Below, in pieces: positions 1 through 20,890 of a stretch of DNA of 21,108 nt (within the stretch, counting starts at the first letter, position 1; every line of letters begins with the position of its first letter). The notes under the pieces are model-generated. The model was not told the origin of the DNA, ran no database searches, and was given only the letters and a program-made list of their open reading frames with translations. The DNA comes from a virus, in IMG/VR virus record IMGVR_UViG_3300041402_000361, positions 1 through 21,108 of that record; one strand, given 5' to 3'. Both the position numbers and the translations under genes were made by a program.

Positions 1-59
1 AACACGTACACACACCCGACTGCCAGGATGGCCATGCACGCGATGAAAATCTTGCTCAT
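1..59 (-). CDS. Partial small membrane protein or lipoprotein, cut by window edge
   Basis: Only the first 19 codons lie in the window. They read MSKIFIACMAILAVGCVYV, a short basic start followed by a hydrophobic run, so the product probably begins with a signal peptide or a membrane anchor. The A-V-G-C segment at residues 12-15 resembles a loose lipobox, which would make it a lipoprotein, but the rest is missing. The ATG shares its A with the TGA stop of the upstream gene (TGATG), and GAGAGGG lies just before it. Function unknown. Confidence 0.6.
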   Translation of the reverse strand, partial: MSKIFIACMAILAVGCVYV

Positions 60-250
60 CACCCTCTCGGAGGATTATATCCCCTCAACGCTTCCACCAG
101 CAGATCGTCGTCCCAGTAGAAGAACGGGCAAGGCTCGGACTTATCTTCTCTCACATTTTCAATCAGTTGCCCCAGCCTCAACGCGGGGTACTGCCGCCAT
201 TTCTGGTAGAGGAACCACAGTATACGAATCATCTGCCATCGAGATCTCAT
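59..250 (-). CDS. Small phage protein of unknown function (63 aa)
   Basis: A 63-residue protein with an aromatic, basic N-terminus, a central LRLGQLIENV segment and an acidic WDDDLLVEALR end. Small phage and bacterial proteins with an LRLGQL...DD-L-E-L layout are familiar, but I cannot name a function. I chose the ATG at 250 because ACAGGAG stands 7 nt before it; longer forms starting up to 292 would overlap the preceding gene and lack a comparable site. The stop overlaps the next start as TGATG, implying coupled translation. Confidence 0.7.
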   Translation of the reverse strand: MRSRWQMIRILWFLYQKWRQYPALRLGQLIENVREDKSEPCPFFYWDDDLLVEALRGYNPPRG

Positions 251-273
251 CAGGTTACTCCTGTAGAATCCCC

Positions 274-711
274 TCATGTGTGCGGGGTCCACTTATTCAC
301 GTCATCGTGGCTCAACTCCAAGTTGACCGGAGTATCGTACTCATGTGATTGACGGCATCGCTGAGCCATTTCATTCACAAGGAACTCCGCAGCAGTGCAC
401 TCCCGTTCAGCCTTGTCCCGCAGCAGGACCGCCGTATCCAAGTCCAGACACTTGATCGAAAAATCACGAAGCTGACCGGCGAGAAACGTGGCCCGACCTT
501 TCCAGACCTCCCTATCTTCCTTCAGCTCTTTGGCCTCTCCCTCGATGTCCCGCTGATCCGCCGCCCGTTTCTTCGACTCCTTCCCGCGCAGCTCCATCAG
601 TTCATCGACCTGACCGTACAATTGGAACAGCTTGGTAACAAGAAACTTCTTGCTCTGTGCCATCAGATGCTTTCGCTCGTGCTTTGGATCGTTTGACTTA
701 CTGGCCCTCAT
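274..711 (-). CDS. Coiled-coil hypothetical protein (145 aa)
   Basis: Highly charged protein rich in Lys, Glu, Arg and Asp. From about residue 25 to 115 the spacing of hydrophobic residues fits a long alpha-helical coiled coil; no enzyme motif is visible. The start at 711 is preceded by GAAAGGAG with 6 nt spacing. An internal ATG at 663 is possible but has a weak site. It lies 42 nt downstream of the Fis-like gene, and that gap contains one copy of the recurring GCACGCGCGTGC palindrome. Function not recognised. Confidence 0.75.
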   Translation of the reverse strand: MRASKSNDPKHERKHLMAQSKKFLVTKLFQLYGQVDELMELRGKESKKRAADQRDIEGEAKELKEDREVWKGRATFLAGQLRDFSIKCLDLDTAVLLRDKAERECTAAEFLVNEMAQRCRQSHEYDTPVNLELSHDDVNKWTPHT

Positions 712-732
712 GCGAACTCCTTTCGCGATTGT

Positions 733-750
733 CGCGCACGCGCGTGCGCG
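733..750. repeat. GC-rich palindrome copy 1 (18 bp)
   Basis: Perfect 18-bp palindrome CGCGCACGCGCGTGCGCG in the 42-nt gap between the Fis-like gene and the coiled-coil gene. It contains the GCACGCGCGTGC core found four more times in the window, at 4785, 5502, 13925 and 20120. Confidence 0.85.
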
Positions 751-753
751 GGA

Positions 754-960
754 TTATCCCACTTTCTTCAGCTTCGCCTTTTTCACCTTCGGTCGAAAGC
801 TTGCGGGGTCCACACCACATTTCTTCACGAAGGTGTAAAAGTCCTTTCGGTCCTTCCCGGCAATACGAGCGGACTCGGACATGTTCCCGTTAGTCTCCCG
901 GAGAACCTCCCGAATGTAGTCCTTGATAAAAGCCGCTTTCGCTTTCGAGAAAGTCATCAT
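754..960 (-). CDS. Fis-type helix-turn-helix DNA-binding protein (68 aa)
   Basis: Residues 6-56 read as a Fis/NtrC C-terminal type HTH: a helix (AKAAFIKDYIREVLRETNGN), then NMSESARIAGKDRKDFYTFVKKCGVD, the pattern of a recognition helix-turn-helix with the usual N-x-S-x-A-R-x-A-G signature. The tail (residues 57-68) is strongly basic, which would help DNA binding. A protein of this kind could act as a phage regulator or nucleoid-like protein. GAGGAG lies 8 nt before the first of two adjacent ATGs. The start overlaps the upstream stop as ATGA. The fold call is good; the target is unknown. Confidence 0.8.
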   Translation of the reverse strand: MMTFSKAKAAFIKDYIREVLRETNGNMSESARIAGKDRKDFYTFVKKCGVDPASFRPKVKKAKLKKVG

Positions 961-1214
961 GTCACAATCTCCTCAACCGGTCCAACCTGCGCCGTATCAC
1001 TTTCTTGCCCCGCTGTTTCATCAACCACACTCTGAGTCTTTCCAACATTGGTGGCCTCCTTCTGTGCCCGACGCTTCTCGATGACCTTCATTTGTCGGCG
1101 TTTCAACAACCTCGCCAAAGCCATCATCTTTCGTTTCGTCTTACCGTTCTTCTGTTGATAGTATGCCTTCTGCGCTGTCTGTAATTCCAATTCCAATCGA
1201 ACAGTGCTCTTCAC
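957..1214 (-). CDS. Basic helical hypothetical protein (85 aa)
   Basis: The N-terminal 55 residues are rich in Lys, Arg and Gln and likely helical (QKNGKTKRKMMALARLLKRR); the last 30 are acidic and polar, giving a bipolar charge layout. No family recognised. It starts with GTG at 1214 behind a GGGGGGTGAG ribosome site. It sits between a membrane protein gene (13 nt away) and the Fis-like gene (ATGA overlap), within one run of coupled genes. Confidence 0.7.
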   Translation of the reverse strand: MKSTVRLELELQTAQKAYYQQKNGKTKRKMMALARLLKRRQMKVIEKRRAQKEATNVGKTQSVVDETAGQESDTAQVGPVEEIVT

Positions 1215-1226
1215 CTCACCCCCCGG

Positions 1227-1517
1227 TTATGAACGAACGATCTTCAGGTGCTCCGGTACCTTGTGCTTCTTCTTCAACGGCGTGTTCTTGGCCTCCTCAG
1301 ATTGCTCCGGGGCTGTGTACCCCATTCCCTCAGCCGCTTCCTGATAGGTCTGGGCAATACCGATCACTTCGTTGTAGTGCTTCTCGCGCTCCCGCATCTG
1401 CATCCCCATATAGAGGACGCAGGCCCATGCGAACGCGGCACTGATGTTCAAACTGACCAATGAAAAGACCATCACAGCGATGGTCAAACCCGTTGAGAAC
1501 TTCTGGCTGCTAGTCAT
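1227..1517 (-). CDS. Single-pass membrane protein (96 aa)
   Basis: Residues 10-37 form a hydrophobic stretch (LTIAVMVFSLVSLNISAAFAW) long enough to cross the membrane. It is followed by a charged, soluble part ending in a Lys-rich tail (LKKKHKVPEHLK). The short N-terminus and following positive residues suggest an anchor with the C-terminal part in the cytoplasm, though this is inferred. GGAGAAGGG precedes the ATG. The start overlaps the end of the RapZ-like gene by 8 nt. Function unknown. Confidence 0.7.
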   Translation of the reverse strand: MTSSQKFSTGLTIAVMVFSLVSLNISAAFAWACVLYMGMQMREREKHYNEVIGIAQTYQEAAEGMGYTAPEQSEEAKNTPLKKKHKVPEHLKIVRS

Positions 1518-1875
1518 GGCCCTTCTCCAAATCCCTATGCTGGACCACCACCTCCCTGATGCTCTTCAGCTTGTCTTGCAGTTCCAGGGCAAGCACCACC
1601 GAACGGTGCCGACCCCCTGTGCAACCGATCATCACTTTGATGCGGTCCATATCGCTTCGAGCTGCCGTGGTAAGCATGGCTACCGTCGCAGCCAAGAACG
1701 TGCGGAAGTCTCCGCGGGACGCGAGTGCACCACGCACGCGCGAGTCCGTCCCATCCAAAGGACGCAACTTCTCATCCTTCCACGGGTTCCACAGCACACG
1801 CGCGTCGATGAGAAAGTTCGTGGCCTTCGTGTCTGGTGACCCGTTCTTGAATCCGAATGTCTCAATCGTAATCAT
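1510..1875 (-). CDS. Stand-alone RapZ (YvcJ) C-terminal domain protein (121 aa)
   Basis: The protein matches the C-terminal half of the bacterial RapZ/YvcJ family along its length: the ETFGFKNGSP start, the F-x-IDARVLWNPW strand, LRPLDGTD, then IGCTGGRHRSV at residues 83-93 and VQHRDLEKG near the end. In full-length RapZ this half binds small RNAs and an amino-sugar metabolite and follows a P-loop kinase-like half, which is absent here. A phage protein of this kind could imitate or block the host RapZ, or bind another nucleotide-like ligand; that is inference. The ATG at 1875 has GGAGG 4 nt upstream, better placed than the GTG at 1878. It overlaps both neighbours. Confidence 0.85.
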   Translation of the reverse strand: MITIETFGFKNGSPDTKATNFLIDARVLWNPWKDEKLRPLDGTDSRVRGALASRGDFRTFLAATVAMLTTAARSDMDRIKVMIGCTGGRHRSVVLALELQDKLKSIREVVVQHRDLEKGHD

Positions 1876-2146
1876 CACACCTCCTTGTTGTGGATAGTGG
1901 GTATCTTACCACACATTCACACGCCCTGTCCATCACGGACGGCTTCGTTCTGAGAATCGTTTCACGCTCCAAGTCAGTAGAGGACCACACGAGGTTGACA
2001 GCGGGCTCCCCATCCACCTTGAACCAGAGCATCTTGCCATTCTTACCCGGCACTTCCAAGATTCGCGAACGCGGGGCTCGACGCCCCCGGGCCGCAGCCT
2101 TCCGCTCGGACTCACATAATGCAACGGCCTTGCTCAGTTCCATCAT
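1862..2146 (-). CDS. Hypothetical protein (94 aa)
   Basis: A mixed alpha/beta-looking small protein with a basic patch (KAAARGRRAPRSR, residues 16-28) followed by a likely beta segment (GKMLWFKVDGEPAVNLVW). No family recognised. GAGGAG lies 8 nt before the first of two consecutive ATGs. The start overlaps the upstream micro-gene stop as ATGA, and the 3' end overlaps the RapZ-like gene by 14 nt. The last 15 codons therefore also contain the ribosome binding site of that gene. Confidence 0.65.
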   Translation of the reverse strand: MMELSKAVALCESERKAAARGRRAPRSRILEVPGKNGKMLWFKVDGEPAVNLVWSSTDLERETILRTKPSVMDRACECVVRYPLSTTRRCDDYD

Positions 2147-2277
2147 GTAATCATCTCCTCAATCGCGTCTACCAACTTGCCCACTCGCGCCAGGAGGACG
2201 AACTTGGTGGGGGACGACACAAGCCATAGAGCGATTCCACCGACCGCCACTGCGCTGACTAGCGTGCGTGCCCTCAT
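2143..2277 (-). CDS. 44-residue membrane micro-protein
   Basis: Reads MRARTLVSAV, then a hydrophobic run AVGGIALWLV, then SSPTKFVLLARVGK and an amphipathic end. Residues 5-20 could form one short transmembrane helix with a basic N-terminus. It is too short for a usual ORF cut-off but fits exactly between its neighbours, with ATGA overlaps at both ends. That strongly supports translation by coupling. Alternatives are a holin-like or regulatory micro-protein, but nothing identifies either. Confidence 0.6.
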   Translation of the reverse strand: MRARTLVSAVAVGGIALWLVSSPTKFVLLARVGKLVDAIEEMIT

Positions 2278-2726
2278 CTAGCTTCCCCTTTACCTGCATC
2301 ATCCCCCAGCATCTTCAGCGCATTCTTATATCTGACCCACATCCGCGGCTCTAACGGGAAAGGCTCCCGAAGGTTGTCCAGCACGTCACACACCTTGATC
2401 CGCCTCGCGCCTTCGTTCTCCGTCACCCGCGCGATATACTCGAAATAGGTTTCCTTTTCCTTGTCGTACGTGAGCACCAAAACCAAATTGGCGACCCCCA
2501 GACCGAATCGCATTTCCACGTCGTTGTAGGTGGCATCCGTATCCTCAATCACATCGTGTAGGAGCGCGGCGGCCACCATCCTCTCGTCTCCACCCGTTCT
2601 CGTCGCAACCTCACACGCAACCCGCAACGGGTGGTAGATGTAATCCACCTCGTTCTTATCCAACTGACCGTCGTGCTTGGCCATCGCGTACCGCAAAGCC
2701 GCGAATACTCTACTCGTCGAATTCAC
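2274..2726 (-). CDS. RelA/SpoT-type HD hydrolase, small alarmone hydrolase-like (150 aa)
   Basis: The order of motifs is that of the (p)ppGpp hydrolase half of RelA/SpoT and of stand-alone MESH1-like enzymes: YIYHPLRVA (His32), ALLHDVIEDT (His57, Asp58, Glu61, Asp62) and KVCDVLDNLR (Asp114, the distal metal ligand). These residues bind Mn2+ and an activating water that removes pyrophosphate from the 3' position. No synthetase domain is present, so it should be hydrolase-only. In a phage it may lower alarmone levels or neutralise a toxic alarmone-type synthetase; the substrate is inferred. It starts with GTG at 2726, overlapping the upstream TGA as GTGA. Confidence 0.85.
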   Translation of the reverse strand: MNSTSRVFAALRYAMAKHDGQLDKNEVDYIYHPLRVACEVATRTGGDERMVAAALLHDVIEDTDATYNDVEMRFGLGVANLVLVLTYDKEKETYFEYIARVTENEGARRIKVCDVLDNLREPFPLEPRMWVRYKNALKMLGDDAGKGEAR

Positions 2727-3028
2727 TTCTTGTACTCCTCTCGCGCATACCGCTCCAACTCGTCATCCCCGAAGGTCTCTGTAGCCGTCGCAGCATCGTG
2801 AACCATTCTGTTCCGCCAAGCCATATAGCGATCCGCTCTTTCCTTGCTCAGGGACCGCGCGTGTTTCGCCCGGGTAGCCTCAGCTTCCTCGGGAGTCTCC
2901 GCCTCGCAACTCATGCACAGGAGAACCTTCGATTCACGGTCGTACCGCTCCAGACCCTCCCTACTCATTGCGCGGGCTGCTCCACATCTACAGCAGTAGA
3001 GCTTGAATACTTCGTTCACGCGGCGCAT
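2723..3028 (-). CDS. Zinc-ribbon hypothetical protein (101 aa)
   Basis: The N-terminal part has a four-cysteine pattern, CCRCG (around residues 12-16) and CMSC (around 38-41), typical of a treble-clef or zinc-ribbon. A charged helical tail rich in Glu, Arg and Ala follows. GAAGGAG lies 8 nt before the ATG at 3028; an upstream GTG at 3037 would overlap this site and is unlikely. The gene overlaps the end of the DUF6011-type gene by 13 nt and the alarmone hydrolase start by 4 nt. No specific function. Confidence 0.75.
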   Translation of the reverse strand: MRRVNEVFKLYCCRCGAARAMSREGLERYDRESKVLLCMSCEAETPEEAEATRAKHARSLSKERADRYMAWRNRMVHDAATATETFGDDELERYAREEYKK

Positions 3029-3831
3029 GATGTGCACTCCTTCATTGACCCGTCCTTCTGAACGATAATCCCCTCATCCATGCACTGTGCACAGTTGAAC
3101 CCCGCATCCTCAGCGGTGATCTCCGGCTCCGTGGGAGGGGTGATGGGAACGCCCGCGAACTTCGTCGGGGCCTTCTTCTTGAACTTGACGCGACCGGTCT
3201 GCGTTCCCTCCATCGTCACCTTGGTGCCCCACGCAAGACCGAACTTCTTGGCACAGATCGGACCGTACCCGACCGCCATGCTTTCATCAGATTCGATCGG
3301 GGTGTTGCAGAAGCAGCAGTGCCCGCTCACCTTCGCGTACTTCTTGGCCATGCCTGCGGGGTCCGCGGACAATCGCTTGACGGTGCTGACGACGTACTGC
3401 GGAACGTCCCCGGACATCTGCCACGTGCCATCCAACAGGATGCGTCCGAACCACTTGTTCTCGCCGTACGGCAAACCGTCGGTGACGTTGATGCTACCCG
3501 GCACCGTCGCTTTTGCCCCGGCCCGGGAAAGCTGAACCGTACCCTCGTCCGTCTTGATGGTGATCTTGGGGTACTTGGCGGCTTGCGCCGCGGTATCGAA
3601 CATCGCAATCAGCGGCGCACAATCCACCACGACGACCGGCTTCACTTCCCCAGTCGAGCGAGCAGCCAGCTTCACCACCCACGGCCACTGCTTCGGGGAC
3701 AGGGTTCCTTTCTTTTCGAGTTGGCCCAGGAGGGAGGTTGCGAACGACTTGTCCTTGTCCGCGAGTTTCTCAAGATTGGCTTTCAGGGTTTTCACCGCAG
3801 CCGCTTCTTTACTGTCGGGGATATAGGCCAT
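3016..3831 (-). CDS. DUF6011-type zinc-binding protein (271 aa)
   Basis: Residues 170-197 read GHCCFCNTPIESDES...GYGPICAKKFG, the C-x2-C...GxGPxCAxK pattern of DUF6011 zinc-binding modules, common in phage and actinobacterial proteins. A second zinc site follows near the end, CAQC (247-250) and CTSC (266-269). The first 60 residues are helical and charged; residues 85-155 look like a beta-rich domain of unknown role. Two adjacent ATGs are possible (3834 and 3831); GGGAG is 6 nt from the second, which I chose. The upstream stop overlaps (TAATG). Biochemical function unknown. Confidence 0.75.
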   Translation of the reverse strand: MAYIPDSKEAAAVKTLKANLEKLADKDKSFATSLLGQLEKKGTLSPKQWPWVVKLAARSTGEVKPVVVVDCAPLIAMFDTAAQAAKYPKITIKTDEGTVQLSRAGAKATVPGSINVTDGLPYGENKWFGRILLDGTWQMSGDVPQYVVSTVKRLSADPAGMAKKYAKVSGHCCFCNTPIESDESMAVGYGPICAKKFGLAWGTKVTMEGTQTGRVKFKKKAPTKFAGVPITPPTEPEITAEDAGFNCAQCMDEGIIVQKDGSMKECTSCAA

Positions 3832-3833
3832 CA

Positions 3834-4103
3834 TTAGCTCCCGAACCGCATGTCAACGAGGTCCGCATCACGGTCGGCTGCGCGGCCTACGACCTGCGCG
3901 CTCTCCAGATAGATGTGGTGATGATCCCCAAGATGGAACGCGCTCTTCTCAGCCGCGCCAATGACATCGTTGACGGTCGGGTTCGTGTACGTGCCAGAAC
4001 TCCAACCTTCCCGATGCAAAATAACGTCACCCTTGAACGCCACGTCGTCACCGCTCTTGGTTCCGAACACACTAGCGTCCACTACAATCTTGATTCTGCT
4101 CAT
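3834..4103 (-). CDS. Hypothetical protein under repeated promoter P1 (89 aa)
   Basis: Starts MSRIKIVVDASVFG. A beta-rich N-terminus is followed by a central Gly/Thr-rich part and HLGDHHHIYLE near residue 60; the histidine cluster could bind metal but no family is evident. The ATG at 4103 has GGAGG 5 nt upstream inside a conserved leader (GGCACGGAGGCCAAG) shared with three other genes. Longer in-frame starts run back into the promoter and are rejected. It is the first gene after the operator-promoter at 4142-4176. Confidence 0.7.
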   Translation of the reverse strand: MSRIKIVVDASVFGTKSGDDVAFKGDVILHREGWSSGTYTNPTVNDVIGAAEKSAFHLGDHHHIYLESAQVVGRAADRDADLVDMRFGS

Positions 4104-4141
4104 CTTGGCCTCCGTGCCGTTTGATGTGCTGTGCTTGACCA

Positions 4142-4176
4142 TGTGGTAACTATACCACACACAAGATAGAAGGCAA
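4142..4176 (-). promoter_or_regulatory. Repeated promoter-operator P1
   Basis: Minus-strand sigma-70-like promoter: -35 TTGCCT (4176-4171), 16-bp spacer, -10 TATAGT (4154-4149). The -10 box lies inside the 18-bp inverted repeat TGTGGTATAGTTACCACA (4159-4142; 7-bp arms, 4-bp centre), identical in all five copies in the window. A protein bound to the repeat would cover the -10 box, so a repressor site is the simplest reading. Drives the 89-aa gene. Confidence 0.85.
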
Positions 4177-4200
4177 GGATTACTTTAGGGGAGGGATGAT

Positions 4201-4223
4201 GCCCCGGTATGACGCCCCGGGGC
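4201..4223 (-). terminator. GC-rich stem-loop after the 115-aa gene
   Basis: Seven-base-pair stem GCCCCGG (4201-4207) with CCGGGGC (4217-4223) and a 9-nt loop, 12 nt beyond the TAG stop. It overlaps a 14-bp palindrome (4212-4225). There is no U-run after it, so termination would be weak or factor-dependent. It separates the upstream gene from promoter P1. Confidence 0.45.
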
Positions 4224-4235
4224 GTGGCGTTGTGT

Positions 4236-4583
4236 CTACTTCTTGATCGGGTCCAGTGCGTCCCTGACCATCGCAGCAAGGTGTTGGAAATTCTTCCCGC
4301 GTCCCATCCACGGGTCCCGCACCTTGTACGGAATGTCCAGAAGGTCGGCTACCCAATGCACCGCATCGAACTCAGCCACCCCCTGCACATCCTGAGCACC
4401 CCCGTCGTTCGGAGTCACCGAGTGCTTCCCCATTGCCGGATCGTTCTTGAACGTCTCGGACTTGAACTCCAGCCCCATCTTGCTGAAGAACTCCGGGCTC
4501 AGGATGGAGTAGCCATCCGTGTCACTCAGCCACTCCCGAACCTTGTCGTGATCCATCTTTTCTACCGTGTTCTTGGTTGTCAT
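4236..4583 (-). CDS. Hypothetical protein (115 aa)
   Basis: Soluble, slightly acidic protein with predicted helices at both ends (VREWLSDTDG; FQHLAAMVRDALDPIKK) and a Gly/Asn-rich middle. The GVAEFDAVHWVADLLDIPYKVRDPW segment looks like a conserved core, but I do not recognise the family. AGGAG lies 7 nt before the ATG. It is preceded by a 250-nt gap containing a hairpin and a palindrome and followed by a GC-rich stem-loop, so it may be a single-gene transcript. Confidence 0.7.
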   Translation of the reverse strand: MTTKNTVEKMDHDKVREWLSDTDGYSILSPEFFSKMGLEFKSETFKNDPAMGKHSVTPNDGGAQDVQGVAEFDAVHWVADLLDIPYKVRDPWMGRGKNFQHLAAMVRDALDPIKK

Positions 4584-4599
4584 GTTGATCTCCTATGTC

Positions 4600-4617
4600 G
4601 AGTCCCTCATTGGACTC
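4600..4617 (-). promoter_or_regulatory. Small hairpin just upstream of the 115-aa gene
   Basis: GAGTCC and GGACTC form a 6-bp stem with a 6-nt loop, ending about 8 nt before the AGGAG ribosome binding site of the gene starting at 4583. It is preceded on the transcribed strand by CCTAAAATAGGG. It could affect translation or be part of a control site; no U-run follows. Confidence 0.4.
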
Positions 4618-4784
4618 AACCCTATTTTAGGAAACCGACTTTTCAGATTGGTGTCATTGGCAACGTGCCGCGTGACCTACCCCTGCACCTTGCATCGCAT
4701 TGACGAAATCGCCCGGGGCCTTGACACGGTTGCCAGCTAACACAGAACGGAGGGCGTGTGATCGGAGATGACTCGATTCAGATA

Positions 4785-7712: not shown

Positions 7713-7747
7713 TGTGGTAACTATACCACAGTCAAGGGGACTGGCAA
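7713..7747 (-). promoter_or_regulatory. Repeated promoter-operator P2
   Basis: -35 TTGCCA (7747-7742), 16-bp spacer, -10 TATAGT (7725-7720), inside the invariant 18-bp inverted repeat (7713-7730). An A-rich GAAAATA tract lies 4 nt upstream of the -35 box, in the position of an UP element. Drives the 126-aa gene. Confidence 0.85.
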
Positions 7748-8562: not shown

Positions 8563-8597
8563 TGTGGTAACTATACCACAGTCAAGGGGAGGGGCAA
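8563..8597 (-). promoter_or_regulatory. Repeated promoter-operator P3
   Basis: -35 TTGCCC (8597-8592), 16-bp spacer, -10 TATAGT (8575-8570), inside the invariant inverted repeat (8563-8580). An AAAATAAG tract lies 5 nt upstream of the -35 box. Unlike the others, the conserved GGTCAA after the repeat is changed to GGTACA, and a long leader follows. Confidence 0.85.
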
Positions 8598-10494: not shown

Positions 10495-10529
10495 TGTGGT
10501 AACTATACCACACCTCCAGCGAGATGCAA
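10495..10529 (-). promoter_or_regulatory. Repeated promoter-operator P4
   Basis: -35 TTGCAT (10529-10524), 16-bp spacer, -10 TATAGT (10507-10502), inside the invariant inverted repeat (10495-10512). This copy lacks the A-rich tract found upstream of P2, P3 and P5. It begins right after the stop of the 52-aa gene. Confidence 0.8.
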
Positions 10530-11298: not shown

Positions 11299-11333
11299 TG
11301 TGGTAACTATACCACACACAAGGGGGATGACAA
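11299..11333 (-). promoter_or_regulatory. Repeated promoter-operator P5
   Basis: -35 TTGTCA (11333-11328), the best -35 match of the five, then a 16-bp spacer and -10 TATAGT (11311-11306) inside the invariant inverted repeat (11299-11316). A GAAAATAA tract lies 4 nt upstream of the -35 box. Confidence 0.87.
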
Positions 11334-13533: not shown

Positions 13534-13716
13534 TCAGTCTACCCGGCTCCCGCCGAGGTCCCTGAGTTGGTGCCACACGTTTTCATCCATATCGTGCATG
13601 GGCACCATGACGTTGCGCGTGTCAGAATCGAGTGTGAAATGCTTGTCGTGGTCGATCATCCAATTGATGAACAGTTGGGTATTGGTGTCAGACCAGAAAG
13701 CAAACTCGAACATCAT
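13534..13716 (-). CDS. 60-residue hypothetical protein after terL
   Basis: MMFEFAFWSDTNTQLFINWM, then IDHDKHFTLDSDTRNVMVPM and a charged end. Several His, Asp and Met residues (DHDKHF, MHDMDEN) could bind metal; family unknown. GAGG lies 7 nt before the first ATG, which overlaps the terL stop as ATGA, so it is the first gene translated after the terminase. Confidence 0.65.
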   Translation of the reverse strand: MMFEFAFWSDTNTQLFINWMIDHDKHFTLDSDTRNVMVPMHDMDENVWHQLRDLGGSRVD

Positions 13717-15530
13717 TTTCGAGCCTCCTCTGCCTTCTCCATCTTCTGAACCAGGGAGCCCGGTATTGCACCCAACGGAATGCTATGGGTCACCCAGACC
13801 TCCCTCCTGCGGCTAATACCATACACGACCCCGGCGAGTGCGTCCGCGCAGTCTTTTGACCCGTTGGGACGATGGTCAATCTTCCCTTTCTGCGCATTCA
13901 CTTCCAGCTTTAGGATCTCCTCTTGCGCACGCGCGTGCGCGGGAATCTGTACGCGATCGTCATAAAGAGCCTGCTTGAAAACCGCATAGGGAAGAGGCGT
14001 CTTATCCATCGACACGTTGCCCACTGTGTACCCCTTGGTCTTGAGGATCTGCAAAGAGTCCACGCTTTGCCAGGAGTCGAACGTCACCCAGGACACCTTC
14101 ACCTTTAGCTTCGAGAGGGTGTAGATCAGCGTGCGCACCTTCTCGAAAAGAATCTCTCCCCCACGCGGGGGCTTGATCTGGAGCACCGCGTCAATGTGAA
14201 TCTTCGGCAGGATCTCCTTGTAATCCCCTCGATCCATCTCGGTGAACCCGTACACACACCCCACCGCAAAGCCACAGGAATCCGCGGTGAGCGCGAGGTC
14301 GATGTGAACGTACCGCTGGAACTCGGGGTACTGAATCAGATTGGGTTCCACGTGCAACTTCAGGTCCTCGAAGTCCACGGCCTCCTGCACGAACAGAGAA
14401 TCATGCCTCCCAAAGCAACCCACCACGCGCTCGGGTTCCATGATGAACGGGTGCAGTGCAGTCGTAGACACGCCCGCGATGTCGCGCAGTGCATTCAGGA
14501 GATCCGCCTTGAACTGGAGTGTGTACTCGACCGGGATTTCATGGACGAGGGCCTTATCCTTGGGCAGCGGATGGTTCTCGTCAATCACGTACGGCTTGCG
14601 CGACTCATCTCCTACGAATACGCTGAACTTCTCGCCGCAGAACTTCCCCGGTCGGATGTCCCACACCCTCTTATCGTAGACGAAGATGCGGGGATTCTCT
14701 TTCGCTTCATCCTGCTTGATGTCGGTGAACTGCCCGCGGTACCGCTTGGAGGAAACCAGACACAGCATCCCCGGCAAGTTCCCACCCAACTCGATGAACC
14801 GAGATTCCCGCCTACGAGCGATCGTGTTGTACGCCTCCACCGCTTGGTTGTACGTTCCCTCATCCGCGGCCTTCCGGCTCTTCTCGATGATCGCCATGAA
14901 GTTCAGCTCGTCAATGCACCCCCCGATCACGTTCTGTCCCAACGCCCCGGTAGACACCCCCGAAATGGGCTTCACGATGATGCGCTTGGGGAACAGGAGC
15001 TTGGACTTGATATTCTTGTCGAAGGTGAAGTTGTGTTGGAAGTAAGGCGACATCTCAATCATCGACTTGAAGCGGTCGTACTCCACATCCTTTGCCGTGC
15101 TGGCGGTGATGCTCTGGAACACGATCTCGATTTCCGATGTGGGGTCCAAACCGAAGACTTCGTGTGGCTTGTCGTAGTGGCTGAGCACATAGAGCTGATA
15201 CGCTTGCGTGTAGAGCGCGATCGTTGTCTTGCCCGACCCAATGGCCCCGGTCAAAACCGCTTCCGTGTACTTCCCGGAATTCAGCTCCTCAATCGCTTTC
15301 ATGCACTCCGGGTAGATGCGCCCCTTCGCGTCCATGTAGTGGGGGCTCTCAATGAACTCCCGCACCCCCACAGGCGCAGACGTATGCTTCCGCAGGTTCC
15401 GACGTACCGCCTCAAGAAACGGAGCCCGTTTCTCCTCCGGTAGCTTCTCCGCCCGCAGGTTCGCCCTCTCCATCGCCGTCACTGTGTTCGTGTACGTGGG
15501 CAGGGAGTTGGGGGGTTGTTCCTGAGTCAT
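13713..15530 (-). CDS. terL: Terminase large subunit
   Basis: The ATPase-nuclease motor that packages DNA into the prohead and cuts it. The N-terminal ATPase has a Walker A GAIGSGKT (95-102), a Walker B GGCIDELN (Asp207, Glu208) and a coupling motif CLVSSKRY (257-263). The C-terminal RNase H-like nuclease has HIDLA (Asp411), TFDSWQS (Asp485) and SKDCADA (Asp560/Asp563) as metal ligands. At 605 aa it is somewhat longer than typical. GAGGTG is 4 nt before the ATG at 15530. The first 119 nt lie within the end of terS in another frame. A copy of the repeated palindrome lies in the nuclease part. Confidence 0.97.
   Translation of the reverse strand: MTQEQPPNSLPTYTNTVTAMERANLRAEKLPEEKRAPFLEAVRRNLRKHTSAPVGVREFIESPHYMDAKGRIYPECMKAIEELNSGKYTEAVLTGAIGSGKTTIALYTQAYQLYVLSHYDKPHEVFGLDPTSEIEIVFQSITASTAKDVEYDRFKSMIEMSPYFQHNFTFDKNIKSKLLFPKRIIVKPISGVSTGALGQNVIGGCIDELNFMAIIEKSRKAADEGTYNQAVEAYNTIARRRESRFIELGGNLPGMLCLVSSKRYRGQFTDIKQDEAKENPRIFVYDKRVWDIRPGKFCGEKFSVFVGDESRKPYVIDENHPLPKDKALVHEIPVEYTLQFKADLLNALRDIAGVSTTALHPFIMEPERVVGCFGRHDSLFVQEAVDFEDLKLHVEPNLIQYPEFQRYVHIDLALTADSCGFAVGCVYGFTEMDRGDYKEILPKIHIDAVLQIKPPRGGEILFEKVRTLIYTLSKLKVKVSWVTFDSWQSVDSLQILKTKGYTVGNVSMDKTPLPYAVFKQALYDDRVQIPAHARAQEEILKLEVNAQKGKIDHRPNGSKDCADALAGVVYGISRRREVWVTHSIPLGAIPGSLVQKMEKAEEARK
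13925..13940. repeat. GC-rich palindrome copy 4 (16 bp)
   Basis: Perfect palindrome GCGCACGCGCGTGCGC inside terL, where it encodes A-H-A-R-A. The same DNA core encodes other peptides elsewhere, so the conservation is at the DNA level. Confidence 0.8.
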
Positions 15531-16053
15531 CCATCACCTCGTACTCCACATCGAGTATCTCTGCTTCCGCGTCATCCAACATCTTCTCAAAGTCATCAAT
15601 CGAGATCGATACGTCACTGCGGTCATAGACGTTGACCTGGATCTCCGGGTTATCCTTCTGATCGAGGATCTGCTTGCCCAACCAGATCTGCATCGTCACA
15701 TTGCCATCCTTCAACGCGGTATCGATCTGCTTCTTCCTCAGCAACCGTTGCGTCTTCGTGCGCCCGCGCTCCCATGCCTGCCGGTAGAGGGGTTCCTGCA
15801 ACCGCCTCTTCATGGTCGAGTGCGATACGTTGAAGAAGGTGGCCGCCTCCAGGATGGTCAGGTTGAGCCCTGCCACGCTCTCCAACTCCTCCGGGGAGAT
15901 CTCGATCTTGGATTGCCCGGATTGGAGCGTGGACTTGACGGCCTTCGGGTATGCCTCGTTCATCACCTGGAGTGCGTCCGCGGTACCTAGCTCCTTCAAG
16001 TCCGCAGCCAGACTCTCCATCTTCAACTTCAAGGCGCTCTTCTCATCAGCCAT
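15412..16053 (-). CDS. terS: Terminase small subunit
   Basis: The DNA-recognition partner of TerL, which binds the packaging start site as an oligomer. Residues 63-86 (LNLTILEAATFFNVSHSTMKRR) form a helix-turn-helix of the kind found at the DNA-binding end of small terminases. A helical core and oligomerisation part follow. The last 35 residues are low complexity and acidic, Gly/Glu-rich (GDGEGEPAGGEATGG). The start overlaps the folE stop by 8 nt. Position just before terL and the HTH support the call; no direct family match is visible beyond that. Confidence 0.85.
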   Translation of the reverse strand: MADEKSALKLKMESLAADLKELGTADALQVMNEAYPKAVKSTLQSGQSKIEISPEELESVAGLNLTILEAATFFNVSHSTMKRRLQEPLYRQAWERGRTKTQRLLRKKQIDTALKDGNVTMQIWLGKQILDQKDNPEIQVNVYDRSDVSISIDDFEKMLDDAEAEILDVEYEVMDDSGTTPQLPAHVHEHSDGDGEGEPAGGEATGGETGSVS

Positions 16054-16921
16054 GTTGCCTCGCCAAGCTCAGGAACTCCGACCTGCAATGGGCCTCGTCC
16101 TTCATCACCCCCAACAGGCAAGAGGTAACCGTGGCCCCTTCGCTTCGGATTCCCCTCATCCCCATGCACAGGTGAACCGCCTGGATCACACACGCCGCCC
16201 CGATCGGTTCTAGGTACTGCATCATCGCCTCTGCGATCTGCTGCGTCATCCGCTCCTGCACCTGCAACCGCGCGGCATAGCACCTCACCAACCGTGCAAG
16301 CTTGGACAATCCGACCACCATTTCCCCCGGCACGTAGCCAACTGTGGCGGTGCCGTGGAAGGGGAGCATATGATGCTCACACAACGAGTAGAAGGGGATG
16401 TCACGGACCACCACCATTTCATCACACCCTACGTCGAACTGTGCAGCGAGGATCTCAACCGGGTCCTGATCGTACCCTTGAGTCATTTCCTTGTACGCGC
16501 GGGCCACGCGCGCAGGCGTATCCTTCAGTCCCTCCCGCTCCGGGTCTTCTCCCACAAACTGGATCAGGCGGGTCACTGCATCCTCCACCGATCCCGCAAC
16601 ACTCTCTTCCCACGGAAACACCAGCCACCCAAGGTCGGGGTCTTTGAGCTTGTTGAACAGCACTACGAAAGGCTTGCCAGGGAATATCGCTTTCCAGTGC
16701 TTGCACGTGCGTCCACTGTCGATCAAGTCATCGCAGATGTAATCCGCCTCCTCCGGGTTATCCACCGGAATCCCAAGCAGAGGCGCAATCGCACACCCGC
16801 CCCGCGGTACCCCGAAGACCTTGCGGGTATCCGTATTCCCGAAGTAGTTGTCCATCTCTATTCGCACGCGATGCGCTTCCCCGCGCAGGGCATCCCACGT
16901 CACGATGGTTGTGTGCCTCAT
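16046..16921 (-). CDS. folE: Phosphoribosyltransferase-GTP cyclohydrolase I fusion
   Basis: Residues 1-110 are a purine-type phosphoribosyltransferase: FGVPRGG, the PRPP-binding ICDDLIDSGRT (62-72) and a WLVFPWE strand end as in xanthine-guanine PRTases. Residues 112-291 are GTP cyclohydrolase I: GEDPEREGLKDTPARVARA, then FYSLCEHHMLPFHG (zinc ligands Cys181, His184; catalytic His183), GLSKLAR, QERMT and HLCMGMRG (Cys252, the third zinc ligand). FolE makes dihydroneopterin triphosphate from GTP, the first step to preQ0. The PRT part might supply guanine nucleotide; that is inference. The ATG at 16921 overlaps the queE stop as ATGA. Confidence 0.93.
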   Translation of the reverse strand: MRHTTIVTWDALRGEAHRVRIEMDNYFGNTDTRKVFGVPRGGCAIAPLLGIPVDNPEEADYICDDLIDSGRTCKHWKAIFPGKPFVVLFNKLKDPDLGWLVFPWEESVAGSVEDAVTRLIQFVGEDPEREGLKDTPARVARAYKEMTQGYDQDPVEILAAQFDVGCDEMVVVRDIPFYSLCEHHMLPFHGTATVGYVPGEMVVGLSKLARLVRCYAARLQVQERMTQQIAEAMMQYLEPIGAACVIQAVHLCMGMRGIRSEGATVTSCLLGVMKDEAHCRSEFLSLARQHG

Positions 16922-17535
16922 CGCACTCTCCAGAGCTTGTGATCCTGTGTCGAGAGCGCCCACCGGGGGTTCTCCAAGCACAGCTTCACACACCAGTCCA
17001 AGGTCTCCCGCAGTACCGTCCCATCCGGCTCAAAGGCGGGGCTGATGAAGTGATGCACGGCTTTCAAGTTCGGCTTGGGAATCGCCTGCCTCACATTCCG
17101 CACATACCTCAGCTCATTGATGATGGCGTAGGTCTCCCGCACCCGCAGCGTATGCTCCGCGGTCTTGGGGGAACAGGACACCCACTGAATCCCGATGGGC
17201 AAAGCCACCGTCCCGTTCGTCTCGATTGCGATAATCCAATTGGATGCCAGGAGTGCTTCGATCAGCTCATTGTCCACCTGCAATCCAGGCTCCCCACCAC
17301 TGAGGACAACCCTGTGCGAACTGGACTCAAGTCGCTCCAGCGTGTGCACGATCTCTTCCGCGGTCATGGGGTAACCCGAACTGAAGTCCGTATCGCAATC
17401 GAACCCCTCCGGTCCATCCGCGCGGCAGGTGAGGTTGCAGCCTGCAAACCGCACCCAATGGTTGACCGTTCCTTTGCGCGCTCCCTCACCCTGGAGCGTC
17501 GGACCGAATATCTCGTTCACCGTGTACGTCTTCAC
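16918..17535 (-). CDS. queE: 7-carboxy-7-deazaguanine synthase (radical SAM)
   Basis: Converts 6-carboxytetrahydropterin to 7-carboxy-7-deazaguanine with an iron-sulphur cluster and S-adenosylmethionine. The start EIFGPTLQGEG is typical. RFAGCNLTC with Cys33 and Cys37, then Cys47 in FDCDTDF, are the cluster ligands; the spacing C-x3-C-x9-C is wider than the usual C-x3-C-x2-C. GGEP (80-83) and ETNG (105-108) bind SAM. It starts with GTG at 17535 behind GAGGGG. 40 nt separate it from queD. Confidence 0.93.
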   Translation of the reverse strand: MKTYTVNEIFGPTLQGEGARKGTVNHWVRFAGCNLTCRADGPEGFDCDTDFSSGYPMTAEEIVHTLERLESSSHRVVLSGGEPGLQVDNELIEALLASNWIIAIETNGTVALPIGIQWVSCSPKTAEHTLRVRETYAIINELRYVRNVRQAIPKPNLKAVHHFISPAFEPDGTVLRETLDWCVKLCLENPRWALSTQDHKLWRVR

Positions 17536-17575
17536 ATCGATCCCCTCATGCGCAACTAATGTGCAACTCTCCCAC

Positions 17576-18064
17576 CTAAATCACATTTAGAGCCGCAGCG
17601 TCTAGGTCCAGAGGTCGATACTCTGCCCCGCAATTCGGCGTCTCCCACACCACCACAGACACCACCCGCAACCCGTAGTCCGTGGGGTCGCCCTCGTCAT
17701 CGTGCGTGAGAAGCGCAGTCGCCACGTTGAATAGGTGTTCGGCCAGGTTCTCCGCGGTCGGGGCCTCCTCCATGATGAAGAAGGGGCGCAATCCCTCCTT
17801 CACTGCTTCCTTCGAGAAGTTCCGCATGAACCCATCGCTCCCTTGGATGATGAATGTGTGATCCCAGTGCTCGTCGATCCAGGTCCCCACGTATTGCTTG
17901 ATGAGCCCGAAGTCCACAACGAAGCCTTCCTTGGTCAGCTCGTTCGCTTCGCACGTGATGTCCACCTTGTACCGATGGCCGTGCGGGGTCTTACACTTGG
18001 ACTCGTGCAGGGGCACTCGATGCCCTGCGTCGAACTCCAATCTGCGCGTGCATGTGATGCTCAT
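17576..18064 (-). CDS. queD: 6-carboxytetrahydropterin synthase
   Basis: Second preQ0 step: dihydroneopterin triphosphate to 6-carboxy-5,6,7,8-tetrahydropterin. Zinc ligands His15, His28 and His30 (FDAGHRV...CKTPHGHRY), catalytic Cys24, the WDHT segment (Asp68, His69) and PTAENLAEHLF (102-112) are all present, and the length (162 aa) fits the PTPS/QueD family. The ATG at 18064 has GGAGGAG upstream and overlaps the gat-queC stop as ATGA; the earlier ATG at 18100 is within the previous gene and has no site. Confidence 0.96.
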   Translation of the reverse strand: MSITCTRRLEFDAGHRVPLHESKCKTPHGHRYKVDITCEANELTKEGFVVDFGLIKQYVGTWIDEHWDHTFIIQGSDGFMRNFSKEAVKEGLRPFFIMEEAPTAENLAEHLFNVATALLTHDDEGDPTDYGLRVVSVVVWETPNCGAEYRPLDLDAAALNVI

Positions 18065-19317
18065 GCCTCCTCCTTGAATACCGGGTCTGTCTTTCCACAT
18101 CGCTCAAACGCCGTGCGCCGCATGAAGCAGGGTCCACACTTCCCGCAGTGCACGTCACCTCCTTTGTAACAGCTCCACGTATGCTCCAACGGAGCCCCCA
18201 GATCCAACCCGTACTGCACGATCTCCCGCTTCACCATCTTGCAGACCGGAGCCTCAATCCGCAGCTCGTACCCTGCGCTCACCGCATAGTCAGCCACCTT
18301 GTCCAGGTAGAGGAACATCTGCTCCTCATTGTCCGGGTACGCTCCGCTCTCCTCCAGGTTGTTTCCCAGCGCCACGATGTGATAGCCATGCGCTTCCGCG
18401 TATGCTGTGGCGTATCCGACCATCACGAGGTTCCGCGCAGGGACCCACTCATGGGCAAACTCCGCTCCTGCGACCGGACCTGCTATTTCCGCCCCTGCTC
18501 TGAGAAGAGTGCTTCCCCCGATGTGGGCGTAGGGTAGAGGCATGATCTCCCACTGCACCTGAACATTGAACTGCTGGTAGAGGTTCTGTGCGATCAGCGG
18601 GATACATTTCGCCTCTCGCTTGGCCGCATGGCATCCGTAGTCCATGTGAAGCAGGCACACGTCATATCCGAGTGCCGCGTAGTGGGTCGCCACCACCGTG
18701 CTGTCCAATCCCCCGCTTGCCACCACGAGCGCACGCTTGGCCGTCTTTCGGGGAATCTCCATCACCCTCCCCGTACGCAGATCCATCGCCGTGTAAGGCT
18801 TCAAGGCTACGGGAGCCTGTCCGAAGGGCATCACATCCTCAAAGTGACTGGCCAGGGAGCTGAAATACCGGGCGTCCCCTGGACCCTCCCAATAGTGGAT
18901 CGGCTTGAAGTTGCAGGCGAGATAGACGGTCCCGTTCGCAGCCATCGCTATCGCGTAACTGCCTTTGATTTGTTCCAGGGAATGAACGAACGCTTCCAAG
19001 GTGCTCGGGTCCAAGATGCGGGGCAGGACCATGCTGTCCACCTCGTCATCCAGAATGCCGAGTTCCATGTCATTTGCGATCGTCCCATTGTGCACAACCC
19101 CGTCATACGGTTGCAGGGGTGCGCGCTCCATCTCCGGCGTAGGGGCTGCCCTCCAATTCCCCAGCACTGCGGTCATGTTGGTGGTCAAGAGGTCGTACTT
19201 CACCTGCCGACCCCCATCCCGTCCGCGGTCTTTCGCGCGCTCTGAAATCAGCCGCAGCGGCACCTCCCATGTGGGACCTTTCTCTTCCCGGAACAGCACT
19301 CCGTAGATTGAACACAC
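18061..19317 (-). CDS. gat-queC: Glutamine amidotransferase-QueC fusion, predicted archaeosine synthase-type
   Basis: N-terminal class II glutamine amidotransferase domain: the GTG start at 19317 gives M-C-S-I-Y-G, so Cys2 becomes the nucleophile; HNG (76-78) binds glutamine. QueC domain from about 190: PP-loop SGGLDS (201-206), LGNNLEESGAYPDN, and four zinc cysteines (383, 391, 394, 397). QueC makes preQ0 from carboxydeazaguanine using ATP and ammonia. GAT-QueC fusions in archaea and phage 9g are tied to archaeosine (G+). No separate queC is visible, so this protein may do both steps. GGAGG is 7 nt before the GTG. Confidence 0.94.
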   Translation of the reverse strand: MCSIYGVLFREEKGPTWEVPLRLISERAKDRGRDGGRQVKYDLLTTNMTAVLGNWRAAPTPEMERAPLQPYDGVVHNGTIANDMELGILDDEVDSMVLPRILDPSTLEAFVHSLEQIKGSYAIAMAANGTVYLACNFKPIHYWEGPGDARYFSSLASHFEDVMPFGQAPVALKPYTAMDLRTGRVMEIPRKTAKRALVVASGGLDSTVVATHYAALGYDVCLLHMDYGCHAAKREAKCIPLIAQNLYQQFNVQVQWEIMPLPYAHIGGSTLLRAGAEIAGPVAGAEFAHEWVPARNLVMVGYATAYAEAHGYHIVALGNNLEESGAYPDNEEQMFLYLDKVADYAVSAGYELRIEAPVCKMVKREIVQYGLDLGAPLEHTWSCYKGGDVHCGKCGPCFMRRTAFERCGKTDPVFKEEA

Positions 19318-19319
19318 GG

Positions 19320-20279
19320 TCAGTCCTCCAGACTGTCTAGGGTCTTCTTCCATCGATGCTTCATCTTGCGCTCAAAATCCAGATACCACTCCACCTCACT
19401 GCGCAGGTTCACGCTCCCCCCACGCAAGCCCGGGTTTGCCCCACCGAGGCTCTTCCAGTTTCCCCACGCCGCGGGACCCTGCTCCCAAGAGGTGGAATCA
19501 CAGCTATGGAAGGGGACGGCCATGAGCACGTTGGTAGCCATGACCCCAAAGCCGTGGATCTTCTTGGGCCACACACGGGCAAAACACTGTCGCACCCAGG
19601 CTTCGAGACTCTTGGGGTTCTGCCCAACCATGCCCCCGAGTGCGATCTTCGGATAGGTCTCTGCGAGGTGCATCAGCGCATCTTCCGGCGCTCCGTAGTG
19701 GAAGGTCGGGATAGCCTCTACCCCCTGCTTCCACATCTCCTCCGTGTTGGCCAGCGTACCTTTCCAATCCCCGATCACGTCCAGGGAATACACTTCCGTG
19801 AGTAGTGGGTCGGATGCGAGCTTCTGTTTACAGCAGTCGATATAGTCCTGGAGCACAATGGGCTTCCCGCTGTTCTCCGCGGTGAACGCCCCGCTATCCA
19901 TCACCCAATCTCGGAAATGAAGGTGCTTTCTCATGCTCTCGAATCCGTTCAAGTAGACATAGGAAACGAGCAGTGCAGGCGCGGGGTCTTGGGAGAGCCC
20001 CTTCTTGATTGCTTCCGGGGGTCCACACAAGGCCAGCCGCAGGTTCGTCATCTCTTCCTCTCCGATATGTTCATGCAACTCCTCCACGCTGGCTGGTTCC
20101 AGGCTCGGATCTTCCAGACGTGCACGCGCGTGCACAGATCCGAATGCCCGCATATGCTTCAGGGGGTTGCGGAACCCTGAAACCAACCGCATGTCTGTCA
20201 CCTCAGTTTCCCCTCCCAGCGTCTTCACGATCCGCGGGTGCGCGTTGTTGTGTGCAATCGCGAGTCGCAAGGTCGTCAC
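19320..20279 (-). CDS. dpdA: DNA 7-deazaguanine transglycosylase DpdA
   Basis: TGT-like enzyme that swaps guanine in DNA for the deazaguanine base. Family motifs: DSGAF (128-132), LDVIGDW (166-172), GGMVG (215-219), HGFGVM (242-247) and SCDSTSW (259-265), in the order of phage DpdA. From an internal ATG at 20051 the protein would be 243 aa, the expected domain. The start at 20279, a GTG overlapping the ParB-like stop (GTGA), adds about 76 residues whose codons look protein-coding. I keep the longer form; the internal ATG has a good site (GAGAGGAAGAG) and may also be used. Confidence 0.9.
   Translation of the reverse strand: MTTLRLAIAHNNAHPRIVKTLGGETEVTDMRLVSGFRNPLKHMRAFGSVHARARLEDPSLEPASVEELHEHIGEEEMTNLRLALCGPPEAIKKGLSQDPAPALLVSYVYLNGFESMRKHLHFRDWVMDSGAFTAENSGKPIVLQDYIDCCKQKLASDPLLTEVYSLDVIGDWKGTLANTEEMWKQGVEAIPTFHYGAPEDALMHLAETYPKIALGGMVGQNPKSLEAWVRQCFARVWPKKIHGFGVMATNVLMAVPFHSCDSTSWEQGPAAWGNWKSLGGANPGLRGGSVNLRSEVEWYLDFERKMKHRWKKTLDSLED
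20120..20135. repeat. GC-rich palindrome copy 5 (16 bp)
   Basis: Perfect palindrome GTGCACGCGCGTGCAC inside the N-terminal extension of dpdA, where it encodes V-H-A-R-A. Confidence 0.8.
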
Positions 20280-20890
20280 TTCGTTTTCTGATTCCCCCAC
20301 TCTGCGCACAGTTGGGTGAGGGCTTCCGCGTGCGAAAGCTTCTGCTGGTGTACGAGTTGAAAGCTCGTAAGCATATCCTTGACGGTGGACCACTGATCGG
20401 CACTGAAGCTGACCACATGGGCGCTTCCCTCATCCTTGTCGGGGAGATCGGTTTTCTCGTCTGGGGAGAAGTCCGCTTGAAGCAGGATTTCCAGTTCATG
20501 TCCCTGCCACCCCAATTCAGTGAAGTCAATCCCCTCCTCTTGCAGGTCCAGGAACTCCTCGGTCACCCGGCTGTAGTCCCACCCGCTGAGTTCGGCCAGT
20601 CTATTATCTGCGAGGCGATACGCCTTCGCTTGCCCTTCGGAGAGGTGATCCAGACGTACCACGGGGACGGTCTTCATCCCCAATTCGGAAGCTGCCAATA
20701 GGCGGCCATGCCCCGCGAGAAGGACCCCCTGCTTGTCCACCAGGACGGGGTTGTTGAATCCGAACCGCTCTATGCTGCGAGCGATGGCATGTACCTGCAC
20801 TTCATCATGGATCTTGGCGTTCTGCGCATAGGGGACCAGCCCCTCCACGGGTAACTGCTCCACCTGCTTTGCTCCATCGGTCACTGCCAC
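20276..20890 (-). CDS. ParB/sulfiredoxin-like domain protein next to dpdA
   Basis: Residues 11-98 are a ParB N-terminal-like fold: LPVEGLVPYAQNAKIHDEVQ, IARSIERFGFNNPVLVDK, then LAGHGRLLAASEL (GHGR at 60-63, the nucleotide-binding turn) and VPVVRLDHLSEGQAKAYRLADNRL. This form is usual in phages and next to DNA methylases. The C-terminal 100 residues are acidic and of unknown fold. GTG start at 20890 with AAGGGG 6 nt upstream. Its stop overlaps the dpdA GTG. In bacterial dpd islands, DpdB, a DndB/ParB-related protein, works with DpdA; a similar partner role here is inference. Confidence 0.85.
   Translation of the reverse strand: MAVTDGAKQVEQLPVEGLVPYAQNAKIHDEVQVHAIARSIERFGFNNPVLVDKQGVLLAGHGRLLAASELGMKTVPVVRLDHLSEGQAKAYRLADNRLAELSGWDYSRVTEEFLDLQEEGIDFTELGWQGHELEILLQADFSPDEKTDLPDKDEGSAHVVSFSADQWSTVKDMLTSFQLVHQQKLSHAEALTQLCAEWGNQKTK

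Follow-up and report, generated by a model that had tools for sequence, protein, structure and literature searches.

A tailed phage encodes a stand-alone RapZ C-terminal domain that may bind a sugar phosphate

The closest described system to the phage protein analysed here is the C-terminal domain (CTD) of Escherichia coli RapZ, which by itself forms a dimer and binds the small RNAs GlmY and GlmZ (PMC5737377, PMC9841335). The isolated CTD neither interacts with RNase E nor mediates cleavage of GlmZ, and both RapZ domains are needed to build the tetramer by which GlmZ is presented to RNase E (PMC9841335). For the Bacillus subtilis homologue, a passage of PMC9841335 citing Foulquier 2020 describes UDP-GlcNAc binding as impaired by mutation of Walker A. 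The E. coli CTD alone binds GlcN6P with a KD of 10 nM, more tightly than full-length RapZ does, and D182 is required for its self-interaction (PMC7073468). RapZ is inactive in the H190A, R253A, C247A and C247S variants, the loss in the two cysteine variants being accompanied by the authors' proposal of a catalytic thiol, and a crystal of the CTD with GlcN6P contained an apparent transformed product (PMC9841335). The resemblance of the RapZ-CTD pocket to a tyrosine-phosphatase loop is already published, together with the proposal that the ligand is hydrolysed (PMC7199280). Stand-alone viral copies of the domain (RapZ_C) are likewise a known and widespread kind, and proteins of phages and giant viruses have already been named 'RapZ-like'.

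The window, by which we mean the whole stretch of 21,108 nucleotides analysed (IMG/VR record IMGVR_UViG_3300041402_000361, positions 1 to 21,108), is phage DNA, as indicated by a terminase large subunit gene at 13713-15530. Its RapZ_C frame is a real gene (Table 1). It starts with an ATG at 1875, with an in-frame GTG at 1878, and stops at 1510; its pattern of GC by codon position is that of the terminase and QueC genes, and it is found at 100% identity on a second IMG/VR contig (L001), which overlaps positions 1-4618 of the window at 100% and extends the genome leftward. The gene overlaps both of its neighbours, as in a tight operon. Searches of Pfam and PHROG gave no match for the upstream gene and no family for the downstream one. 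Two genes upstream of RapZ_C (2274-2726) lies a stand-alone RelA/SpoT-type HD hydrolase domain (HD_4) that possibly acts on alarmones, and three genes downstream (754-960) a small protein of 68 aa that weakly matches a Fis-type helix-turn-helix.

Table 1. Features of the RapZ_C locus and related elements, in coordinates of the window
Feature	Position	Strand	Evidence
Stand-alone RapZ C-terminal domain CDS, 121 aa	1510..1875	minus	PF22740, RapZ equivalog model, PDB phmmer, AF2 model, fold match
Shine-Dalgarno AAGGAGG of the RapZ_C gene	1880..1886	minus	sequence
Phosphate-binding loop CTGGRHRS, residues 85-92 (E. coli C247-S254), Cx2Gx2R[ST] signature	1600..1623	minus	alignments
D24-x-R26 (E. coli D182, R184)	1798..1806	minus	alignment
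W32 at E. coli RapZ pocket position H190	1780..1782	minus	alignment
H113 (E. coli H276), invariant among viral copies	1537..1539	minus	alignment
Upstream gene, 94 aa, 3' end overlaps RapZ_C start	1862..2146	minus	
Downstream gene, 96 aa, start overlaps RapZ_C stop	1227..1517	minus	
DUF6011/phrog_4046 gene, recurrent RapZ_C neighbour in related phages	3016..3834	minus	Pfam, PHROG
Palindrome copies	4142-4159, 7713-7730, 8563-8580, 10495-10512, 11299-11316	minus	

The encoded protein is a complete stand-alone RapZ C-terminal domain. PF22740 matched residues 2-117 over profile positions 3-121 of 121 with 98.4 bits (E 4.2e-28; cut-off 27 bits), while the NCBIfam RapZ model (NF003828 / PRK05416) was matched only over positions 162-278 of 278, at 91.5 bits against a cut-off of 244 bits, indicating that the N-terminal half of RapZ is absent. 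Consistent with this, the 121-aa frame contains no Walker A motif and lacks the N-terminal kinase-like domain that characterises RapZ under NF003828; what is missing is the half in which the Walker A mutation impairs UDP-GlcNAc binding by the B. subtilis homologue. An earlier note on this DNA had read the gene from its motifs GCTGGRHRSV and VQHRDLEK, both of which are present, as the RNA- and metabolite-binding part of RapZ, with the kinase-like half missing, and the profile matches bear this out. So does the structure prediction that it had proposed. The AlphaFold (AF2) model (mean pLDDT 96.5, pTM 0.90) superposes on the E. coli RapZ-CTD crystal (5o5s/5o5o) with a Z of 19.0 and an rmsd of 1.6 over 116 residues, and Foldseek gave an E of about 1e-9 for the same domain. 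In searches of the PDB, RapZ was the only significant phmmer match (6e-16) and the only structure found with a profile. The phage protein thus shares the whole-chain fold of the E. coli CTD at 38% identity, and also most residues of its phosphate pocket, D182, R184, R196 and H276; it differs from E. coli RapZ in having Trp for H190, Met for R238, and a less basic C-terminal tail with GHD in place of RKP.

Stand-alone copies are common in viruses. A phage collection held 56 records with a match to RapZ_C, the frame that holds the domain lacks a Walker A motif at all 80 RapZ_C loci taken from IMG/VR, and PF22740 matches all 54 aligned members. One of the 80 loci, L065, is probably bacterial. At the best 80 bacterial loci, by contrast, the domain follows a long N-terminal part, with at least 198 residues ahead of the loop cysteine, which is the layout of full-length RapZ. 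Annotated stand-alone examples include Rhodobacter phage RcZahn gp140 ('RapZ-like protein') and Rhizobium phage RHph_TM16 EVB27_119, both of 109-114 aa, 30-37% identical to the window copy and carried by phages whose terminase is homologous to the window's, as well as copies in Streptomyces phage Geonosis and Gordonia phage Tarzan ('RNA binding protein'). Members of PHROG 18111 and actinophage proteins (e.g. Tarzan gp64) are likewise stand-alone, at about 30-37% identity, and go by the names 'ATPase', 'nucleotide-binding' or 'RNA binding protein'; the first of these was presumably inherited from full RapZ, since these proteins lack the Walker A half. The domain is also encoded by giant viruses (Klosneuvirus, Pithovirus, Marseillevirus), which have no obvious need for GlmZ; their copies are only 21-26% identical to the window's, several of the proteins are longer, and the hosts are eukaryotic. 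The Microcystis phage MaAM05 record (L005) carries a full-length RapZ with a gluconeogenesis factor gene, panB and panC, so that this 'phage' genome appears to be bacterial in part.

The window copy belongs to a lineage of tailed phages in which the stand-alone domain has been maintained. Relatives of its terminase, at about 46-54% identity, occur in Stenotrophomonas phages Summit/DLP, in RcZahn and in Vibrio phages, and among 16 RapZ_C-bearing records searched, 10 have a terminase that shares 48-56% identity with that of the window. A homologue of the window DUF6011 gene is present at seven RapZ_C loci, and L015 additionally has the downstream prohead-region gene that occurs on L001. Among the loci with the shared terminase and DUF6011 neighbour, RapZ_C itself is just 33-39% identical, indicating that it has diverged far in a common genomic place. 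The annotated phage collection held no near-identical phage, and the RcZahn protein as query found nothing among viral contigs. In the tree, viral and bacterial copies otherwise lie largely apart, and the nearest to the window copy by path is RapZ of Pseudomonadota; recent transfer from a particular host was considered and rejected, as the tree gives the window copy, on a long branch (1.53), no resolved position.

This phage carries further elements of interest. A 7-deazaguanine cassette at 16046-20393 encodes FolE, QueE, QueD, QueC and a DpdA-like queuine transglycosylase, suggesting modified phage DNA; its FolE has a 136-aa N-terminal extension with a weak phosphoribosyltransferase match and its QueC a 200-aa N-terminal extension. 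A tRNA-Asn gene lies at 5939-6014 of L001 with the anticodon GTT, which is of the queuosine type, in a phage that also carries 7-deazaguanine genes. A shared pathway with RapZ_C was rejected, as QueC was found in 0 of 16 related RapZ_C records (several of them fragments), so that RapZ_C is not tied to the cassette. The palindrome TGTGGTA-TAGT-TACCACA, of which no copy is expected by chance, occurs in five perfect copies upstream of phage genes, and these look like operators overlapping a promoter -10 (TATAGT).

To see which parts of RapZ are retained, residues were compared between 78 viral and 80 bacterial sequences in E. coli RapZ numbering; L065 was left out of the counts as a probable bacterial contig (CofD adjoining, and placed among bacterial RapZ in the tree). 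C247, G250, H252 and R253 do not vary in either set and G249 is present in 94% of the viral copies, a conservation that is partly built in because the bacterial sample was picked by query similarity with a loop-containing pattern and the viral sample with a more relaxed version of that loop. D182, R184, P189 and H276 lie outside the loop and are free of this bias, and these four, with R196 and K251 (K/R), are near-invariant in viral and bacterial sequences alike, the dimer residue D182 reaching 99% of the viral copies. Of the sulphate/malonate pocket (H190, T248, G249, H252, R253) plus C247, the window copy keeps five of six residues. The exception is Trp at the H190 position, seen in about 5% of viral copies, where bacterial RapZ has H, F or Y. 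The basic positions of E. coli RapZ are less well kept: all bacterial copies (100%) have a basic residue at R238 against 8% of the viral ones, the shares at K170 are 98% and 40%, and at K270, R282 and K283 only 3-6% of viral copies are basic. Judged from these alignments, the viral copies all appear to keep the phosphate-binding pocket, and not clearly the RNA-regulating surface. The pocket conservation could also stem from binding RNA phosphates.

The earlier note had further suggested that the phage copy acts in glmS control or RNA decay. This is possible but found no support: the CTD alone lacks the RNase E interaction and GlmZ cleavage activity of RapZ (PMC9841335), the window copy has lost K203, F208, R211, R238 and, of the three C-terminal basic residues, R282 and K283, and has H190 replaced by Trp, and the window and its neighbour contig L001 (30 kb of phage) gave no Rfam match to GlmZ, GlmY or glmS RNA, only to a tRNA. 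The window copy may still bind RNA, as most of its basic surface is intact. K170, R184, K194, R196, K251 (R), K270 (R) and K281 are retained, five of the seven basic RNA-facing residues named in PMC9841335 are kept, and the net charge is +4, against +5 for the E. coli CTD. In a fuller form of this idea, the phage CTD dimer would bind host GlmZ/GlmY-like stem-loops as a decoy or regulator, keep them out of reach of the host's RapZ-RNase E and so alter glmS expression and the supply of envelope precursors. The E. coli CTD alone binds GlmY and GlmZ as well as full RapZ does (PMC5737377; PMC9841335), five of the retained residues (K170, R184, K194, R196 and the R at K251) would be available for such binding, and a host that has lost rapZ shows altered LPS and glmS and is less well infected by phage JS09 (PMC8546717), which makes the pathway relevant to one phage at least. 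We nevertheless consider this unlikely, in view of the same six residue losses, of a Trp at a position where H190A is dead in E. coli RapZ, of the CTD's inability to mediate cleavage, of the lack of these RNAs in the 30 kb, and of the loss of R238 and the basic tail by the viral copies as a group.

The near-invariant D182 speaks for another alternative, in which the phage CTD would form mixed dimers with host RapZ, break the tetramer and inactivate it. RapZ is active only as a tetramer, and contacts within the CTD dimer are important (PMC5737377, PMC9841335), but the window protein is just 33-43% identical to bacterial CTDs and giant viruses, with eukaryotic hosts, carry the same domain; we regard such interference as improbable.

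The Cx2Gx2R[ST] loop, which in the AF2 model sits between strand 79-85 and helix 91-103, is common to the phage protein and cysteine-dependent dual-specificity phosphatases (DSPs) such as SBFV3 DSP (7ncy). The model matches 7ncy with a modest Z of 6.6 (rmsd 2.4 over 80 residues), a level tied with phosphofructokinase, also at 6.6, which may reflect a common arrangement only. No profile link to PTP/DSP families was found: the PDB profile search gave none, a Pfam scan of RapZ_C members found no PTP family, and hhalign of the RapZ_C profile against a thin, four-sequence profile of DSP-like neighbours gave a probability of 1.4%. That the viral stand-alone copies are cysteine-loop phosphatases of amino-sugar phosphates or RNA ends we hold to be rather doubtful. 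The DSP-like proteins of that profile (PTP-SAK family, with a CxGGHGRT loop) recur with a large protein beside RapZ_C in four related contigs (L021, L050, L056, L067), and could point to a domain that recognises the terminal phosphates of RNA or DNA, or removes them. Such end processing or repair would also agree with HNH genes adjoining RapZ_C in Tarzan and L015, and with Corynebacterium phages that fuse RapZ_C to a C-terminal HNH-like region (L011 3965-4642; L012 3584-4678), in phage Lederberg beside an RtcB-like ligase and tRNA; in phi16 a P-loop segment lies in front. Around the window gene, however, no HNH, RtcB-like or DSP-like neighbour was found, HNH genes are frequent in phages, and the DSP-like profile does not align with that of RapZ_C, all of which makes a role at nucleic-acid ends improbable as well.

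The reading that we tentatively favour is a dimeric binder, perhaps a hydrolase, of a GlcN6P-like sugar phosphate. We infer it as the most economical one from the E. coli literature and the pattern of conservation. The phage protein, small and cytoplasmic, would form a CTD homodimer and bind a phosphorylated (amino)sugar, e.g. GlcN6P, through the CTGGRHRS anion loop, and hydrolysis of this ligand by the loop cysteine may come in addition. During infection, some precursor of the cell-envelope or nucleotide-sugar kind would thereby be lowered, buffered or redirected, with RNA binding secondary at most. Neighbours differ by phage group, with no partner gene common to all viral copies, and no sugar genes were identified adjoining the window gene. 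In RcZahn and RHph_TM16, RapZ_C is immediately followed by a block that includes epimerase, aminotransferase and glycosyltransferase genes, and parts of this block occur in four related contigs (L045, L047, L060, L083). This fits binding of a sugar phosphate, but the cases are not independent, as the carrier phages share ancestry with the window phage through their homologous terminases.

Overall, the survey indicates that the 'ATPase' label on PHROG 18111 misleads. The viral stand-alone copies reveal which part of RapZ is kept without small RNAs or RNase E, apparently the phosphate pocket and the dimer residue, and they offer small natural test pieces for the question whether RapZ-CTD chemically turns over its ligand (PMC7199280, PMC9841335). 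If they were phosphatases, turnover would be the core activity of the domain, and the small-RNA adaptor role of enteric RapZ would have been added later.
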